Source: a virus
Virus record (IMG/VR): IMGVR_UViG_3300032267_000365
Location: 1-24,988 of that record
DNA length: 24,988 nucleotides
Strand: one strand, 5' to 3'
Shown: piece by piece, positions 961-14,707 of the stretch
How the letters are laid out: each line of letters opens with the position of its first letter
How positions within the stretch are numbered: position 1 is the stretch's first letter
The notes under the pieces: generated by a model
Seen by the model: the letters and a program-made list of their open reading frames with translations, nothing else
The model's database searches: none
Told to the model about the DNA's origin: nothing
Program-made: the position numbers and the translations under genes

Positions 961-1258
961 CCTCTTTCGTCTTGATGATCACCAACGGCTCGGTAGTCTT
1001 TAGCGTGGTCTCATTGGTCTGCTTCGGCTTGCCGTAAGCACGGTCAAGCAACAACTCAGATGCTCGGACATCGCCTTTCGTGGCTCTTGCTCTTAGTGCT
1101 TTAAGTATTGCCTCTGCTGCCGTGATGCCATCCTTCTCTTCGCCCAATACATCAGCGAGCAATACGTGAAGCTCCGGCAGCTTACGTGGTCGCCCGTTAG
1201 GGTTTCCCGTTTGCCCTTTCTTAAATTTATGTGGCTCTATGTTCTCAGGCTTTGGCAT
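947..1258 (-). CDS. Small terminase-like DNA-binding protein (DUF5681-like)
   Basis: The 103-aa product opens with MPKPENIEPHKFKKGQTG and NPNGRPRKLPE, the basic KFKKGQxGNPxGRP motif of DUF5681-type phage proteins. A helical region (EAILKALRARATKGDVRASELLLDRAYGKPKQ) follows. Proteins of this type often sit directly before terL and are thought to act as the DNA-recognition subunit of terminase. The longer reading from 1339 adds 27 residues that are antisense-like and lie inside the methyltransferase gene, so I chose ATG 1258, which overlaps the methyltransferase stop by 14 bases. The role as small terminase is inferred from position plus motif. Confidence 0.75.
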   Translation of the reverse strand: MPKPENIEPHKFKKGQTGNPNGRPRKLPELHVLLADVLGEEKDGITAAEAILKALRARATKGDVRASELLLDRAYGKPKQTNETTLKTTEPLVIIKTKEDGNA

Positions 1259-2432
1259 CGCTGTTTTTTCGCTGTAAATATGGCTGCCCATTGCGCTTAA
1301 TTGTAAGCGATGGGTCAAGTTTAAGCATCCTGTCGACAATCACTTGGCAATACTTCGGGTCGAGTTCCATCCCGTAGCATTTACGCTTAAGTTGGTGTGA
1401 TGCAACCATTGTTGAGCCGCTGCCAAGAAATACGTCAATAATAATATCTTTTTTTACCGAAGAATTATTCATGAAATATTCTACTAAACCAATAGGTTTC
1501 ATCGTTGGATGCTCTTTATTGTTTCTTGTCTTTTCAAATTCAAATACGGATGTTTGTTTTCTATCTCCGTACCATTTATGAGCTGCTCCTTCTTTCCATC
1601 CATAATGTATTATTTCATGTATTGGATGATAATCAAATCTTGATAAATTTAAAGATGGCTTTTTCCAAACAATAGCTGATTGATATTTCCATAGCCATGC
1701 ATTCACATATTTAGATTGTTCTAAACCTATTGGACTTGCAGCATAAATTGGGCATCCTTCTTTAATAAATAAATCTAATGTGGTAAATACATCTAAAAGA
1801 AATTCCTCAAAATCATCCCTTCTTTCATCGTTTTGTATTTTCCTTCCTTTGCTTTCATAGCCTATTCCATACGGCGGGTCAGTAAATACCATATCCGCTT
1901 TTTGCCCATCCATCAACTTTGCAACCGCATCGCTATCCGTTGAATCCCCACAAAGCAACCGATGCTCTCCAATCTCGAATAGGTCACCAAGTACGATGTC
2001 TGTTTCAATGCCCCCATCAGGTACTTCGAACTCGTCCTCAACTGCTTCGAGTACTTGCTCAGTCTCAAAGTTTGGAATATCAAGCCCCCAATCATTAAGC
2101 TGCTCAGTATCCCAATCGTTAGCAAGCATCTGCCAATCCCATTCGCCTCCGCTTACGTTGTCTTTGATTAAGAATTCACGTTGTTGTTCTTCCGTTAGGT
2201 TGTCTGCGATGATGATAGGTACTTCTTTCAATCCTGCTTCTTTGCAAGCCTTTAGTCGCATATTGCCACCAAGCACCACCATGTCGCTATTGACTACGAT
2301 AGGACGAATGGAAAGCATCTCGGGCAAGTCTTTGATCGACTGCACCAACTTAGCAAACTTCTCATCCTTAATCAATCGAGGATTATTCGGATTGAGTTTA
2401 ACTTCTGATATCTTAACTGCTTTTGTTTTCAT
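1245..2432 (-). CDS. ParB-like nuclease domain fused to adenine DNA methyltransferase
   Basis: The 395-aa protein has an N-terminal ParB/sulfiredoxin-like domain (about 1-120; NPNNPRL and VLGGNMRLKACKEAGLKEVP) joined to a DNA methyltransferase. TDPPYG (184-189) precedes the SAM-binding DVFLGSGST (333-341), with HPTMKP at 308-313. This is the motif order of beta-class amino-methyltransferases, and DPPY suggests N6-adenine. Such fusions are common in phages and probably protect the phage genome from host restriction. ATG 2432 was chosen over the 2573 start because the extra residues lie in the upstream gene, whose stop (2434) is 1 base away. Residues about 184-334 are encoded by strikingly AT-rich DNA. 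No cognate restriction endonuclease is visible. Confidence 0.92.
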   Translation of the reverse strand: MKTKAVKISEVKLNPNNPRLIKDEKFAKLVQSIKDLPEMLSIRPIVVNSDMVVLGGNMRLKACKEAGLKEVPIIIADNLTEEQQREFLIKDNVSGGEWDWQMLANDWDTEQLNDWGLDIPNFETEQVLEAVEDEFEVPDGGIETDIVLGDLFEIGEHRLLCGDSTDSDAVAKLMDGQKADMVFTDPPYGIGYESKGRKIQNDERRDDFEEFLLDVFTTLDLFIKEGCPIYAASPIGLEQSKYVNAWLWKYQSAIVWKKPSLNLSRFDYHPIHEIIHYGWKEGAAHKWYGDRKQTSVFEFEKTRNNKEHPTMKPIGLVEYFMNNSSVKKDIIIDVFLGSGSTMVASHQLKRKCYGMELDPKYCQVIVDRMLKLDPSLTIKRNGQPYLQRKNSDAKA

Positions 2433-2433
2433 G

Positions 2434-2745
2434 TCAACTCCTAAATAGCACAGCCTGTGCATCAGTGTTTTGCTCAATCTTATCGACCTGCTCGCGGCTG
2501 TTATCGTAATGCAAATCGATGTCGAGCCGATCGATGGTCCGCCACTTATCAGCGCCATTGGTGAAGTAAACACGCAGGCGTGGTATGTCGAGCTCTTCAG
2601 CGATGGCGAATACCTCAGCCGATGCGCGGCCTTCGTTGCGGGCTGTTATAATAAACACATCATCGCCCCTGTTAATTGCGCGTTGTGCAATCTGCTTGCC
2701 GGGCTCTGTGTCCAGCACACCATCGATGTCGAATGATACTCTCAT
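2434..2745 (-). CDS. HAD-like phosphatase / 5'-nucleotidase-like protein
   Basis: The 103-aa product starts MRVSFDIDGVLDTEPGK, the HAD motif I DxDGVL with nucleophile Asp6 and acid/base Asp8. FIITARN follows as motif II, and DLHYDNS near residue 80 could be the Asp-containing motif IV. It resembles small phage 5'(3')-deoxyribonucleotidase or polynucleotide phosphatase-like proteins, which trim nucleotide pools or nucleic acid ends. At 103 residues it is a minimal HAD core without an obvious cap domain. Its ATG overlaps the stop of the preceding small gene (ATGA), and its stop is 1 base from the methyltransferase start. The substrate is unknown. Confidence 0.75.
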   Translation of the reverse strand: MRVSFDIDGVLDTEPGKQIAQRAINRGDDVFIITARNEGRASAEVFAIAEELDIPRLRVYFTNGADKWRTIDRLDIDLHYDNSREQVDKIEQNTDAQAVLFRS

Positions 2746-6281: not shown

Positions 6282-6665
6282 TTATCTCAAATACTCTTCA
6301 ATTATTTCAATGCACTCCATTAACCCAATGCCGAACACGGCCTTATATCCTACCATGTTAAGATGGTTGAGCATTGCATGTTGCTCTTCAAGGTGTTGAT
6401 CGGCGTAGAGCGTGCCGTCCTTGCGCTGCGTTCGTTCGCCCTCCTTTTTTATTTCGATGTATAGCCCAGCGTAACCGTTCGATGGCTGGCAGATGAATAG
6501 GTCAGGGTAGCCTCGATGCGGGTTGAGCCCCTTGTGCGATTTCGCTTGCCCGATGCTCATCTTTACGCCCGCGCTGAAGTCGAAACGCCATAATACTCTC
6601 GCGTGCTTTAGCTTCATAAACTTCGCGATTGCAAAGTATATATCTGATTCTTTAGCCTTTCTCAT
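6282..6665 (-). CDS. VRR-NUC domain nuclease
   Basis: The 127-aa protein is a single-domain VRR-NUC nuclease of the PD-(D/E)XK superfamily. Members cut branched or flap DNA structures and are frequent in phage replication modules. Visible catalytic elements are GYPDLFI (52-58, Asp55), LYIEIKKEG (68-76, Glu71 and Lys73) and EEQHAMLNHLNMVGYKAVF (93-111, Gln95). Length is typical for stand-alone phage versions. The start at 6665 overlaps the end of the cytosine methyltransferase by 14 bases. The structured RNA lies directly downstream. A role in resolving recombination intermediates with the nearby RecE-like exonuclease is likely but inferred. Confidence 0.88.
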   Translation of the reverse strand: MRKAKESDIYFAIAKFMKLKHARVLWRFDFSAGVKMSIGQAKSHKGLNPHRGYPDLFICQPSNGYAGLYIEIKKEGERTQRKDGTLYADQHLEEQHAMLNHLNMVGYKAVFGIGLMECIEIIEEYLR

Positions 6666-7980
6666 ACTGCTCGATTGCTTTGAAAATTTGGTAAACCACT
6701 TGAGGCACTATGGCGTTTCCTCCGGCTTTGATTGATTCGTTTCGCCACTTAGAAAAGGTAATTCCGTCCAGTCGGGAGGAAATCCCATCATTTCGAGTAC
6801 GAATTGTGGGTTCAGTTGTTGGGAAATTTCTCCAGTTTGTTGAGTGTGCTTCCCAAGCATTACCGGCAGATTGTTCAATTGGTCTGCTCTGCTCTTGCCA
6901 TCCTTTCTCGTCATTCCATTTGGTGATTGACCGCTTTTGCAGTCTCTCGTTGTCGGTGTTGGAAGCATTTGATTCTTTAACAATTGCGGCAGACTCAATT
7001 GTAGATTGATTCCCTTTTCTGCCCATTTTTCTTTTCGCGCTTGATACTTTTCCGGAGTCTGGGCATCCTTGTAATCTCTTTGATTCGGTGTTGGTAACAT
7101 CCCCATTGCCATTGCTCGGCAAAGGGTTACACTGTGCATCGAGCCCTCCTTCACTTGGCTGCTCTTCATCGTTGCCGTTGCGTTCGTTGAGTCCATTGCC
7201 GTGGGGGTGGGCAACATCCCGTGAAACTGCAAATGGTCTATTATTGAGTTCGGTCTTGCTTCCCCGTTCGCTCTGCTGAACATTGATGTTGCTCCTGTTT
7301 CTTGTAGTGCTTGTACTCTGTCGGGGTGCTCCCTTTGGATTGCCGTTGGTGTGGGGAGTAGTCCGTTCCGAGCCATTTGCTTCAAAGGAAATTGAAGATT
7401 CACTCCCTTTGCTTTGTGTCTTTCCTGTGCTGCCTTGAATGTGTCCGGATGCCTCCCATCTTTGCAATCGTATGCCGATGGGGTTGGTAGCATTTCGGTA
7501 AGCAACAAACCATACTCTATCTCTTCGGTGCGGTGCGTTGACGGCACAAGCTGGAAGTACATACGGTTGAACTTCGTACCCTTCAGCTTCCAAATCAGCC
7601 TGCACTTCGTGGAAGACCACCCCTCCTGACCAATTAACAAGGCCGAGAACGTTTTCGCCCACAACCCAACGCGGCTGAATTTCTCGAATCGCTCTAAGCA
7701 TCTCCGGCCAGAGGTGTCGCTCATCTTCTTTTCCAAGTCGCTTTCCGGCCATTGAGTAGGGCTGGCAGGGGAATCCACCTGTGAGGATGTCAATTCGTCC
7801 TCTGTGAATAGTGAAATCTGTCTTTGTGATGTCATCATAACTGATTGAATTTGGAAAGTGATATTTTAATACTTTTTGCCCGAATGAATTCCACTCGCAA
7901 TGGAATATGTTCTCCCACCCCATCCACTCAGCGGCTAAATCAAAGCCGCCGATTCCGCTGAATAAGCTGCCGTGTGTCAT
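6652..7980 (-). CDS. dcm: C5-cytosine DNA methyltransferase
   Basis: The 442-aa enzyme would methylate cytosine C5 in phage DNA, probably against host restriction. Conserved motifs are SLFSGIGGFDLAAEWMG (5-21, SAM site), TGGFPCQPYSMAGKR (67-81, catalytic Cys72), VGENVLG (107-113), HRRDRVWFVA (151-160) and GGNAIVPQVVYQIF (420-433). The long middle (about 161-400) is hydrophilic and carries five spaced copies of a TNxxGxxLQ-like element instead of an ordinary recognition domain. ATG 7980 overlaps the upstream stop (ATGA). Most of the gene is also open in a second frame on the same strand (6708-7838). No partner endonuclease is visible. Confidence 0.95.
   Translation of the reverse strand: MTHGSLFSGIGGFDLAAEWMGWENIFHCEWNSFGQKVLKYHFPNSISYDDITKTDFTIHRGRIDILTGGFPCQPYSMAGKRLGKEDERHLWPEMLRAIREIQPRWVVGENVLGLVNWSGGVVFHEVQADLEAEGYEVQPYVLPACAVNAPHRRDRVWFVAYRNATNPIGIRLQRWEASGHIQGSTGKTQSKGSESSISFEANGSERTTPHTNGNPKGAPRQSTSTTRNRSNINVQQSERGSKTELNNRPFAVSRDVAHPHGNGLNERNGNDEEQPSEGGLDAQCNPLPSNGNGDVTNTESKRLQGCPDSGKVSSAKRKMGRKGNQSTIESAAIVKESNASNTDNERLQKRSITKWNDEKGWQEQSRPIEQSAGNAWEAHSTNWRNFPTTEPTIRTRNDGISSRLDGITFSKWRNESIKAGGNAIVPQVVYQIFKAIEQYEKG
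6708..7838 (-). CDS. Second-frame protein nested in dcm, with LPTP repeats
   Basis: A 376-aa ORF lies entirely within dcm on the same strand in another frame, starting MMTSQRQISLFTEDELTSSQ. It has an N-terminal region (about 11-110; KKMSDTSGRRCLERFEK, WSSTKCRLIWKLKGT, YFQLVPS), then five repeats of 39-48 residues each opened by LPTP (117, 161, 209, 248, 292), and a C-terminal block LNPQFVLEMMGFPPDWTELP (342-361). I recall proteins of this exact layout (SSTKCxLxWK, LPTPTAxD repeats, LNPxFVxxMMGFPxxWTEL) being annotated in other phages and Bacteroides mobile elements near dcm genes. No function is known to me. It may be real dual coding or the shadow of a repeat-biased gene. Confidence 0.55.
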   Translation of the reverse strand: MMTSQRQISLFTEDELTSSQVDSPASPTQWPESDLEKKMSDTSGRRCLERFEKFSRVGLWAKTFSALLIGQEGWSSTKCRLIWKLKGTKFNRMYFQLVPSTHRTEEIEYGLLLTEMLPTPSAYDCKDGRHPDTFKAAQERHKAKGVNLQFPLKQMARNGLLPTPTAIQREHPDRVQALQETGATSMFSRANGEARPNSIIDHLQFHGMLPTPTAMDSTNATATMKSSQVKEGSMHSVTLCRAMAMGMLPTPNQRDYKDAQTPEKYQARKEKWAEKGINLQLSLPQLLKNQMLPTPTTRDCKSGQSPNGMTRKDGKSRADQLNNLPVMLGKHTQQTGEISQQLNPQFVLEMMGFPPDWTELPFLSGETNQSKPEETP

Positions 7981-11518: not shown

Positions 11519-12163
11519 TTATTTTGCGCGACCAATTGCGAATCCTGTAATGCCACCAAGTGCGAAAGCGAATGCGCGTGTCTCGTACCACTTTTTAGGC
11601 GGCTCGGCCACGATTATATTGCTCATGCCGGTAACAGTCACGTATGGGTTATCAATGCCAAGCCTAACAACCTTATCGCGCTTACGCGATAGGAAGCCCT
11701 TACGCAGCGTATCTCCGATTGCAACGGTATAACTTACTGGAATAATAATTGAGTCCAACTGAAGCCGTCCTAAGCGGTTAATTTGCCCACCTATCTCGAG
11801 CCACTTACCGGGCCGATGGAAGTAACGCGGCAATCTCATATGCGGAAAGCTGTCAATGTACACAGTCTCGCCGAGTTGAATCTCGGTCTTAATCTTGGTT
11901 CGCGTTTGGTAGCGTATCACCACTTCAGGCTCACGCAGCTGCAAGGCTCGCAGCTTGGTGCCTGCCGCTGAGAGCTGCACTCCTTGGCTGTGTATCTTGC
12001 TGCTATCTCTCGCGATGCGTACCATATACTCATTATTGAGCGAATCCAGATACATAGCATTGCTTTCAGCCTCACCTAATGCTCCGCAAGTGCGAAACAA
12101 AAGCAGCAAAAGAAATAGGCATATTACTAAGAGGCTGAGACTGGTTACGTTGCTTTGCTGCAT
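11519..12163 (-). CDS. Spanin-like / DUF6808-like membrane protein of the lysis module
   Basis: The 214-aa protein has an N-terminal membrane anchor (about 8-27, LLVICLFLLLLLFRTCG) and a helical stalk (about 30-75). A beta-rich region follows (VVIRYQTRTKIKTEIQLGET, SIIIPVSYTVAIGDTLRKGF), and then a hydrophobic C-terminal end, FAFALGGITGFAIGRAK (about 196-214). Anchored periplasmic proteins of this sort follow the lysozyme in Bacteroidetes phages and are candidate spanins that fuse inner and outer membranes at lysis. No lipobox for a separate outer-membrane spanin is seen here. The assignment rests on topology and position. Confidence 0.6.
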   Translation of the reverse strand: MQQSNVTSLSLLVICLFLLLLLFRTCGALGEAESNAMYLDSLNNEYMVRIARDSSKIHSQGVQLSAAGTKLRALQLREPEVVIRYQTRTKIKTEIQLGETVYIDSFPHMRLPRYFHRPGKWLEIGGQINRLGRLQLDSIIIPVSYTVAIGDTLRKGFLSRKRDKVVRLGIDNPYVTVTGMSNIIVAEPPKKWYETRAFAFALGGITGFAIGRAK

Positions 12164-12330
12164 TTTATCAGTTCGTTTAATCGTTTGAGGTACGTGCTCT
12201 TATCTCTAAGCTCGTTGAGCAATATATCGCCCGCCACCTTAATCGGCATCGACTTCTCGGCTATGTAAACTGCCAGCACTTTAACAAGTCTATCATCGCA
12301 TTCGCAATCGGTCGCTGGGAGGTTATTCAT
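12145..12330 (-). CDS. Small helical protein after the PAS-HisKA gene, 61 aa
   Basis: The product starts MNNLPATDCECDDRLVKVLA and is mostly helical and amphipathic, with no membrane segment. Its ATG overlaps the stop of the PAS-HisKA gene (ATGA, 12327-12330), so the two are translationally coupled, and it overlaps the spanin-like start by 19 bases. It is not the missing kinase ATPase domain: no N, G1 or G2 box is present. It may be a partner of the upstream protein. Confidence 0.6.
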   Translation of the reverse strand: MNNLPATDCECDDRLVKVLAVYIAEKSMPIKVAGDILLNELRDKSTYLKRLNELIKCSKAT

Positions 12331-12893
12331 AATTGCCGTGTTGCTTTTTTGACTAACAGCCGAATCACATTGTCGAGCTTTTCAACGCTATCTTCGAGCA
12401 TCTTCATAACGCCATCGCGCTCTTGATCGGTTGCCCAAGTATGCTCGTTTATCATCTTCACCAAGCCACCAATCGATGTCAATGGCTGACGAAGTTCGTG
12501 CGATAGGGTGAAGCGAAATTCTTCGAGAAGCATCTTTTGCCGTTCATATTCGTGGTTGCTTATGGAAGTAACATCGACCAGTTGAATTCCGATAAAGTGC
12601 AGCATATCGACAATGGCGTAAACATTCCACATATTGAAACGCTCCGAGCTTATCTTCTGCTTCGTCTTAGCGTATGCCCGAATCGGGTCAGGCGATTTGG
12701 TTTGCGCCTTGCGAATTGCTGCAAGCAGTTCATCGCGGTCGCTATCTTGCGCTGCGATGTCGAGGATATTGCCGGGCTTTATGTGGCTGGAGTACTCGCG
12801 GAATAGGTCATTCGTAGTGACGATGTTGCCATCCCTGTCGGTGATCACATAGAAGAGGTCAATTGATGACTCAAGGATGTGCAGCGATGCCAT
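12327..12893 (-). CDS. PAS-HisKA protein lacking the histidine-kinase ATPase domain
   Basis: The 188-aa cytoplasmic protein has an N-terminal PAS-like domain (about 5-110; DLFYVITDRDGNIVTTND through IQLVDVTSI). A HisKA dimerisation helix pair follows, with a complete H-box FTLSHELRQPLTSIGGLVKM (128-147), phospho-acceptor His132. It stops at residue 188, where the HATPase_c domain of a sensor kinase should begin; neither it nor the next gene has ATP-binding motifs. It could therefore be phosphorylated by, or dimerise with, host kinases and rewire a two-component pathway. ATG 12893 sits 4 bases after a TATCTTTG box, so it has its own predicted leaderless promoter. Its place inside the lysis module is unusual. 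Confidence 0.85.
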   Translation of the reverse strand: MASLHILESSIDLFYVITDRDGNIVTTNDLFREYSSHIKPGNILDIAAQDSDRDELLAAIRKAQTKSPDPIRAYAKTKQKISSERFNMWNVYAIVDMLHFIGIQLVDVTSISNHEYERQKMLLEEFRFTLSHELRQPLTSIGGLVKMINEHTWATDQERDGVMKMLEDSVEKLDNVIRLLVKKATRQL

Positions 12894-12897
12894 GCTG

Positions 12898-12930
12898 CAA
12901 AGATACGTTAAACCGAACGTAAATCCGCAA
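12898..12930 (-). promoter_or_regulatory. Bacteroidetes-type promoter for the PAS-HisKA gene
   Basis: TATCTTTG (12898-12905) has a TTG (12928-12930) 22 bases upstream and ends 4 bases before the ATG at 12893. The predicted transcript starts at or within a base or two of the start codon. The site lies at and just beyond the 3' end of the upstream gene. Confidence 0.6.
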
Positions 12931-13300
12931 TTAATGAACGCCATGCTGGCACACATCCGAGCGCATACTTGATGGTAAGCAGCATCGTGAAGGTGAGCAC
13001 AATTCCGTTGGCAAGTATATCGTAATTCATAGGCGTTGGCATTTCCGGCTCGTTTCTTACAGGATGAGTTTTCGGGATGTAATACGTAGCGGCTGGGTAT
13101 AAAGATACATCACATGGTTGAATCGTGTCGAATGCTGTGAGCACTTTCGCCTTTGCCGGTTGCGCCATCACAGCGTGAAAGCTCTCACGATTCGCCTGGG
13201 CGAATGAGGTGTCGGCATTAGCAGCCTCCCAGCTCATCGTGTCAATGTTGAGCTTGCTGTGGCGCACTACCTTTATTGTATCTCTTCTAATCTGTTGCAT
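12908..13300 (-). CDS. Membrane protein of the lysis module, 130 aa
   Basis: The product starts MQQIRRDTIKVVRHSKLNID, has a soluble region of about 90 residues with several Pro and Tyr, and then one hydrophobic segment near the C-terminus (about 95-113, ILANGIVLTFTMLLTIKYAL). This topology fits a tail-anchored membrane protein; it might be a second holin, pinholin partner or antiholin. It overlaps the holin's stop by 14 bases, starting at ATG 13300. No family is recognised. Confidence 0.6.
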   Translation of the reverse strand: MQQIRRDTIKVVRHSKLNIDTMSWEAANADTSFAQANRESFHAVMAQPAKAKVLTAFDTIQPCDVSLYPAATYYIPKTHPVRNEPEMPTPMNYDILANGIVLTFTMLLTIKYALGCVPAWRSLIADLRSV

Positions 13301-13490
13301 CGCTTTTGGCTTTTGGAATATACCCTGCGGCTAATAGTGCTGCAATGATGGCGGTTAATGTCTCGGCTGTTATCACTTTGAAGATAAGTAGGAAGATGGA
13401 CACCAGAATCATAAGCGAACCGATTGTGCCGCGCCAGTGCTTCACAATCACATCGAGTATTCGCCTTTGCTTGGTAGCCCTTTTCCGCAT
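13287..13490 (-). CDS. Two-TM holin-like protein
   Basis: The product from ATG 13490 starts MRKRATKQRRILDVIVKHWR: a strongly basic N-terminus, then two hydrophobic helices (TIGSLMILVSIFLLIFKVI and LTAIIAALLAAGYI) separated by a short loop, and a charged tail. This is class II holin topology, and the gene directly follows the lysozyme, which lacks a signal peptide and so needs a membrane pore to reach the cell wall. An in-frame GTG at 13505 would add five residues, giving a possible dual-start arrangement as in lambda holins. The function is inferred from topology and context. Confidence 0.75.
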   Translation of the reverse strand: MRKRATKQRRILDVIVKHWRGTIGSLMILVSIFLLIFKVITAETLTAIIAALLAAGYIPKAKSDATD

Positions 13491-13505
13491 ACCTAATATA
13501 CGCAC

Positions 13506-13536
13506 ACGCCAGCGCGGCGTTGGGGCAATTGCGCCC
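13506..13536 (-). other. Two tandem hairpins between lysozyme and holin
   Basis: The roughly 30-base gap consists of two GC-rich inverted repeats: GGGC/GCCC (13523-13536) and ACGCC/GGCGT (13506-13520). There is no U-tract, so they are not obvious terminators. They may regulate holin translation, since the GTG start is directly next to the second hairpin. Confidence 0.45.
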
Positions 13537-13994
13537 TAAATATTACACAATGAGAAATAGATATTTGCTTCTTCTCGCCTGCGATTTGTAAGCCCTGAGA
13601 GCACTTTCCCGCCTGCCTTGTTCCACTTCAGGAACTCATCGAGTATGCTCGGGTCGGCTGAGTTGGCTTTGGCTTTCTTTAGCAGCGTGGACTTTACCAA
13701 AGCACCAGTCCCTACATTGTAAGCGAAGCAGACAAGCGCATCGAATTGGCATTGGTTGAGGTTAGGTAGGTGTTTATTTACTGCCGACTCGAATGGGTCA
13801 AGCGTAGAAAGTAGCAATTGCGTTGCTTCCTTTTCGCCGCTCAGCTTTTCGCCGAGCACTACCTTCTTGCCATTCGGGTAGCGTGTCGAGCCGTAGCCAA
13901 TCGTGGGCACTCCGGCGGGGCATAGGTAGCTTGAGAGCCTCAATCCCTCGTACTTCTTAATCAGATTAAGGCCGAGAATTGAGGTGCTGCGCAT
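13536..13994 (-). CDS. GH24 (T4-type) lysozyme, endolysin
   Basis: The 152-aa product is a muramidase-type endolysin that hydrolyses peptidoglycan at lysis. The N-terminus holds YEGLRLSSYLCPAGVPTIGY, with catalytic Glu16. T4 lysozyme's Asp20 position is Cys25 here, and Thr31 aligns with T4 Thr26 (spacing +9 and +15 conserved). FDALVCFAYNVGTGA and GLTNRRREEANIYF are the other family blocks. The Asp-to-Cys variant is known in GH24 phage lysozymes and does not imply inactivity. There is no signal peptide or SAR helix, so export depends on the adjacent holin. The start at 13994 overlaps the upstream stop. Confidence 0.92.
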   Translation of the reverse strand: MRSTSILGLNLIKKYEGLRLSSYLCPAGVPTIGYGSTRYPNGKKVVLGEKLSGEKEATQLLLSTLDPFESAVNKHLPNLNQCQFDALVCFAYNVGTGALVKSTLLKKAKANSADPSILDEFLKWNKAGGKVLSGLTNRRREEANIYFSLCNI

Positions 13995-14503: not shown

Positions 14504-14707
14504 TTACAAAGGTAATACATCTTTTGGAATATATTCAATCGCTGGCAATTGCTTCACCCATTCGATGGTTGTGCTGCTTACCTCTTCGCCGCTTATTATC
14601 CAATTGCCATTCGCATCTTCGATCGGGTTGAATGTCATATCTGCAACATATTGAACGCCGCGTAATTGCTCAGCTTGTTCGGGTGTTAGTTGGTATACTT
14701 GTGTCAT
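14504..14707 (-). CDS. Small fibre-associated protein, 67 aa
   Basis: The product starts MTQVYQLTPEQAEQLRGVQY and contains MTFNPIEDANGNWIISGEEV. The pattern of helix, YVADMxFNPIxDxNxNWIISxEEV is one I have seen in small proteins next to tail-fibre genes of Bacteroidetes phages; the function is unknown, possibly fibre assembly. It overlaps the preceding fibre gene by 4 bases (ATGA at 14704-14707). The -7 box of the next gene (14507-14514) lies inside its last codons. Confidence 0.65.
   Translation of the reverse strand: MTQVYQLTPEQAEQLRGVQYVADMTFNPIEDANGNWIISGEEVSSTTIEWVKQLPAIEYIPKDVLPL
14507..14514 (-). promoter_or_regulatory. Bacteroidetes -7 box (TACCTTTG)
   Basis: TACCTTTG lies 15 bases before the ATG at 14491, with TTG (14536-14538) 21 bases further upstream. 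TTTGTAAAAACTA following the box is shared with the promoter at 20075, suggesting a common start-region element. Confidence 0.5.

Follow-up and report, generated by a model that had tools for sequence, protein, structure and literature searches.

The locus raises the question of what a viral protein built of a PAS domain and a DHp/HisKA hairpin, with no ATPase domain, does in a lysis cassette. The gene lies in a window (the whole 24,988-nt stretch of viral DNA that was analysed) in which an earlier, sequence-only reading had placed a PAS-HisKA ORF with a phospho-acceptor histidine. The ORF, its strand, its length, and His132 are all as described there.

Domain structure of the PAS-DHp protein

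12327..12893, minus strand: PAS-DHp (HisKA) gene, 188 aa, without an ATPase domain
12576..12863, minus strand: PAS domain, residues 11-106, from the AlphaFold model and structure matches
12336..12557, minus strand: DHp/HisKA helical hairpin, residues 113-186, from the HisKA match, solved-structure matches, and the AlphaFold model
12498..12500, minus strand: His132 codon (phospho-acceptor), within the invariant H-box SHELRQPL

The start at 12893 is the one used family-wide; an alternative start is possible at 12956. The H-box of the window protein, SHELRQPLTSI, contains His132. In agreement with the full H-box read from the sequence, the HisKA profile (PF00512) matches residues 129-178 with 30.8 bits, compared with a gathering score of 26.9, and the same profile is matched by 33 of 33 diverse relatives.

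The PAS half has no Pfam match over threshold. Its TIGR00229 score is 12.9 bits against a cut-off of 22.9, and PAS_9 gives a weak match in one member. The AlphaFold monomer model of the 188-aa protein, made with 67 aligned sequences (mean pLDDT 80), supersedes a shallow-alignment model with a pLDDT of only 49.5. It has PAS topology, with strands at residues 13-18 and 23-27, helices at 29-34, 43-46, and 50-65, and strands at 71-78, 84-94, and 97-105. In a structure search with the model, the PAS half matches solved PAS-B domains with Z up to 14.8 (rmsd 1.9 over ~94 residues). The window protein is thus modelled with a PAS fold, which bears out the PAS-like domain of the sequence-only reading. 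It contains zero cysteines, and hence no LOV-type flavin-binding Cys motif.

The C-terminal part of the model consists of two long helices (residues 113-150 and 156-186) that make up the DHp hairpin. Solved DHp domains match it, the best being the sensor protein 3a0r. Only two residues follow the second helix, and the chain ends at residue 188, where an ATPase domain would begin. The top full-length structural matches are LOV-histidine kinase chains, which match with low global TM-scores (~0.4); nothing can therefore be read from how the model places PAS and DHp relative to each other.

The protein resembles HisKA sensor kinases of the PhoR/PnpS type, in which PAS is followed by DHp with an H-box, and is co-linear with them over residues 16-181. 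However, it has no ATPase or transmembrane part, is viral, and is encoded in a lysis cassette. PhoR-type models are the nearest curated models, with scores far under the cut-offs, and this nearness may be due simply to how common PhoR is among PAS-DHp proteins. Viral histidine kinases and PAS proteins with PAS(-DHp) folds are also found in other phages (BFVD A0A6J5L941; short PAS proteins A0A6J5KZZ3 and A0A6J5NY05), but their similarity to the phage PAS-DHp protein is structural only, at 10-18% identity.

A conserved family without the ATPase domain

Queries with the window protein and with its PAS half alone match 128 and 356 IMG/VR stretches, respectively. Full-length relatives occur in hundreds of IMG/VR contigs, with identity down to 46%. 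A search for homologues with the same truncation yields 168 distinct full-length proteins, every one of 185-189 aa, that share the ATPase-less architecture. The distinct complete proteins number 147. Of these, 146 carry SHELRQPL in its expected position and measure 185, 188, or 189 aa; the remaining one is a frameshifted copy. A pattern search that contains the H-box is biased, and members were also gathered via the PAS half and via the neighbouring spanin-like gene. His132 is present in every readable full-length member gathered in these two ways, and it is kept despite changed surroundings (e.g., SHEIRQPFAS in L362). Residues S131, H132, E133, R135, Q136, and P137 are invariant in a non-redundant set (n = 29) that takes in members retrieved by PAS-only or neighbour-gene queries, and they are held while the family diverges to 46% identity. 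The stretch after the histidine is almost constant at ~56 residues.

The gene is under strong purifying selection: the dN/dS ratio is ~0.06 (dS 0.8-1.1), and non-synonymous changes are scarcest in residues 119-150. The conservation excess of the predicted regulator-docking positions over the rest of the helices is not significant (permutation p 0.09-0.12). The sequence-only reading had named two observations that would speak against it, namely ATPase-bearing homologues and a variable His132. No ATPase-bearing homologue is found among the relatives, and His132 is invariant. Together these support a maintained ATPase-less PAS-DHp protein that acts with host partners.

A tblastn search of 50,697 phage isolate records finds no close relative, a divergent-member query against phage isolates gives short chance-level matches only, and two tblastn scans of GTDB contigs find no cellular relatives. 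For the window protein no named family beyond HisKA was found, and among the papers searched none deals with a HisKA protein encoded by a phage or with a PAS protein in a lysis module. The component parts are of known kinds, and what appears to be undescribed is their stable combination, PAS-DHp without an ATPase domain, at a fixed place in a lysis cassette.

Absence of phage-encoded partner domains

The stop falls where HATPase_c is expected to start, as had been noted from the sequence. Profile searches covered the window and 30 relative records, 19 of which are 35-40 kb and some of which may be incomplete. HisKA is over the cut-off in 30 of the 30 relative records. HATPase_c is found in none of them and not in the window; Response_reg is over the cut-off in 0 of 30; HATPase_c_2 and Hpt (PF01627) are each found in 0 of 21 records including the window. 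Each of these searches is positive in most or all control genomes. No ATPase family is matched among the lysis-side neighbours in the window, again in line with the sequence-only reading. One relative has a Response_reg match of 15.9 bits on the opposite strand near the HisKA gene, which is under the cut-off and was taken as chance.

HATPase_c is therefore neither in the chain nor nearby, and the window protein is not an orthodox sensor histidine kinase. Lacking the ATPase domain, the protein is unable to phosphorylate itself. The same absence in record after record argues against these phages encoding the missing ATPase. Since their own ATPase, Hpt, and receiver are missing across the records searched, any partner is probably host-encoded.

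Spo0B bears a C-terminal ATPase-like domain. ChpT bears one as well, and these phosphotransferases resemble the phage protein in having a DHp-like hairpin with a phospho-accepting histidine and in not being expected to autophosphorylate (PMC3433190). However, they have no PAS domain, whereas the phage protein has a PAS domain and, with two residues after the second DHp helix in the model, no C-terminal domain of the Spo0B/ChpT type.

The lysis cassette

13536..13994, minus strand: phage lysozyme (endolysin) of the PAS-DHp cassette, Pfam Phage_lysozyme 2.7e-39
13287..13505, minus strand: holin-like small membrane protein, a conserved small hydrophobic gene with a weak match to phrog_565 (E 0.014)
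12908..13300, minus strand: 130-aa protein with one C-terminal hydrophobic segment, directly upstream of PAS-DHp, in 21 of 22 genomes
12145..12330, minus strand: 61-aa conserved protein, directly downstream of PAS-DHp, in 19 of 22 genomes
11519..12163, minus strand: unimolecular-spanin-like protein, assigned by anatomy only

The order lysozyme, holin-like, membrane protein, PAS-DHp, 61-aa protein, spanin-like is near-constant in 22 genomes. It also holds for L250 and L257, two genomes in which BLAST recognises no relationship to the window for the head and replication genes. The spanin-like query alone retrieves 80 contigs, 78 of which carry PAS-DHp (one as a contig-end fragment); the other two stop short of the PAS-DHp position, so PAS-DHp is upstream of the spanin-like gene in 78 of 78 testable cases. 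The position inside a lysis module, which had been read from a single genome, is thus much firmer.

Two of these neighbours were named in the sequence-only reading. The proposed holin is a conserved small hydrophobic gene, but its family assignment is weak. The proposed spanin has an N-terminal hydrophobic segment with an invariant cysteine at its end and a C-terminal Gly-rich hydrophobic segment, the layout of a unimolecular spanin, which makes it a putative member of that class. The spanin-like protein (11519-12163, minus strand) has a weak relative in Flavobacterium phage vB_FspS_tant8-1, adjoining a peptidoglycan hydrolase.

The 61-aa ORF overlaps the PAS-DHp stop by 4 nt. Its relatives span 61-69 aa with the motif DERLxKV...MPxxxA, and those of the upstream membrane protein (12908-13300, minus strand) span 130-177 aa; neither belongs to a known family. 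In the divergent L250, L257, and L258, an extra protein of 253-266 aa with an N-terminal signal-like segment (cluster c34) lies between lysozyme and holin.

A promoter box ahead of the PAS-DHp gene

12898..12905, minus strand: TATCTTTG, a Bacteroidota-type -7 promoter element with 4 nt between it and the PAS-DHp ATG, predicted leaderless mRNA
14507..14514, minus strand: TACCTTTG, promoter box ahead of the gene preceding lysozyme, possible second cassette promoter

The promoter that the sequence-only reading had assigned to the gene itself is recovered as this box, read from 12905 to 12898. The Flavobacterium -7 element TAHHTTTG spans -12 to -5 (PMC6847099). With a spacing of 4 nt, transcription would begin at the start codon, and the mRNA is therefore predicted to be leaderless. 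The box stands at exactly this spacing in 88 of 147 distinct members; as background, 0.8% of ATGs in the same DNA have such a box within 18 nt. No conserved -33 element is evident beside it. The remaining cassette genes are mostly without a box, and the gene before lysozyme has one at 14-23 nt. Divergent PAS-DHp groups are without the box, so a leaderless promoter of the gene's own is frequent rather than universal. The box points to a Bacteroidota host.

A model for PAS-DHp function and its alternatives

We favour, with a probability of about 0.45, a dimer that accepts phosphate without having an ATPase of its own, is gated by PAS, and cooperates with two-component proteins of the host around lysis. 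The PAS sensor and the DHp would form a cytoplasmic homodimer, a four-helix bundle built from two hairpins. The ATPase domain would have been lost long ago and the ATPase-less form retained. His132 would be the entry point into the host two-component network, phosphorylated by the ATPase domain of a host kinase or by a host response regulator. The protein would then transfer or drain the phosphate and so set host regulatory output during infection, with the PAS domain, presumably ligand-binding, gating the effect. The exposed histidine and its acidic neighbour are invariant, although simple dimerisation would place no constraint on them, and a phospho-accepting role is favoured for this reason. 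The H-box invariance could instead serve binding and not phosphorylation. The fixed cassette position suggests that the output may matter for lysis or envelope state. The protein probably plugs into host signalling proteins late in infection; the more specific proposal of a phosphorelay node, which reads host two-component signalling via His132 and ties lysis to it, is tentative and on balance doubtful.

If the favoured reading is true, a viral protein that is widespread and strictly maintained retains from a sensor kinase just the parts for sensing and for accepting phosphate, and viruses would use or rewire host two-component signalling. Whether lysis timing responds to host signals could be tested directly by mutating His132.

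Lysis timing might instead be set independently of phosphate, with PAS switching a dimer whose binding partner is a cassette neighbour: the 61-aa protein, the upstream membrane protein, or the holin. The gene keeps its place between the holin and upstream membrane protein on one side and the 61-aa and spanin-like proteins on the other in nearly all of the 22 diverse genomes, including the two with unrelated-looking head and replication genes, and at all 78 testable spanin-like neighbours. However, gene order is conserved along most of the genomes, which makes neighbourhood a weak sign of interaction, and the invariant phospho-acceptor motif is left unexplained. We consider such a regulator unlikely.

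Less likely still is a dominant-negative protein that pairs through its DHp with a host sensor kinase in mixed dimers and blocks trans-autophosphorylation, in the manner of RetS on GacS. RetS is a membrane-bound sensor kinase, which sets it apart from the phage protein, for which a heterodimer is hypothetical. The full DHp hairpin and helical linker without an ATPase would suit such a blocker. By analogy, the phage DHp may engage the DHp of another kinase, and DHp-DHp exchange is known to block a kinase (PMC12148439). However, a blocker needs neither an invariant histidine nor the adjacent glutamate, yet both are invariant.

A captured host sensor kinase that was recently truncated, or is now a decaying fragment, is a reading which a single sequence alone would be unable to exclude; it is extremely improbable and can be set aside given the same architecture in 168 distinct proteins, the strong purifying selection, and the failure to find a full-length, ATPase-bearing relative.

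Other genes of the window

A single ORF at 1245-2573 (minus strand) fuses a ParB-N domain to an N6/N4 DNA methylase. A 376-aa ORF at 6708-7838 (minus strand) lies in another frame wholly within the C5 methyltransferase gene at 6652-7980 (minus strand). Both frames are matched by 27 related loci, and in several of them the identity in the overlap frame equals or exceeds that of the methyltransferase. From this comparison, the 376-aa ORF looks like a genuine overlapping gene.
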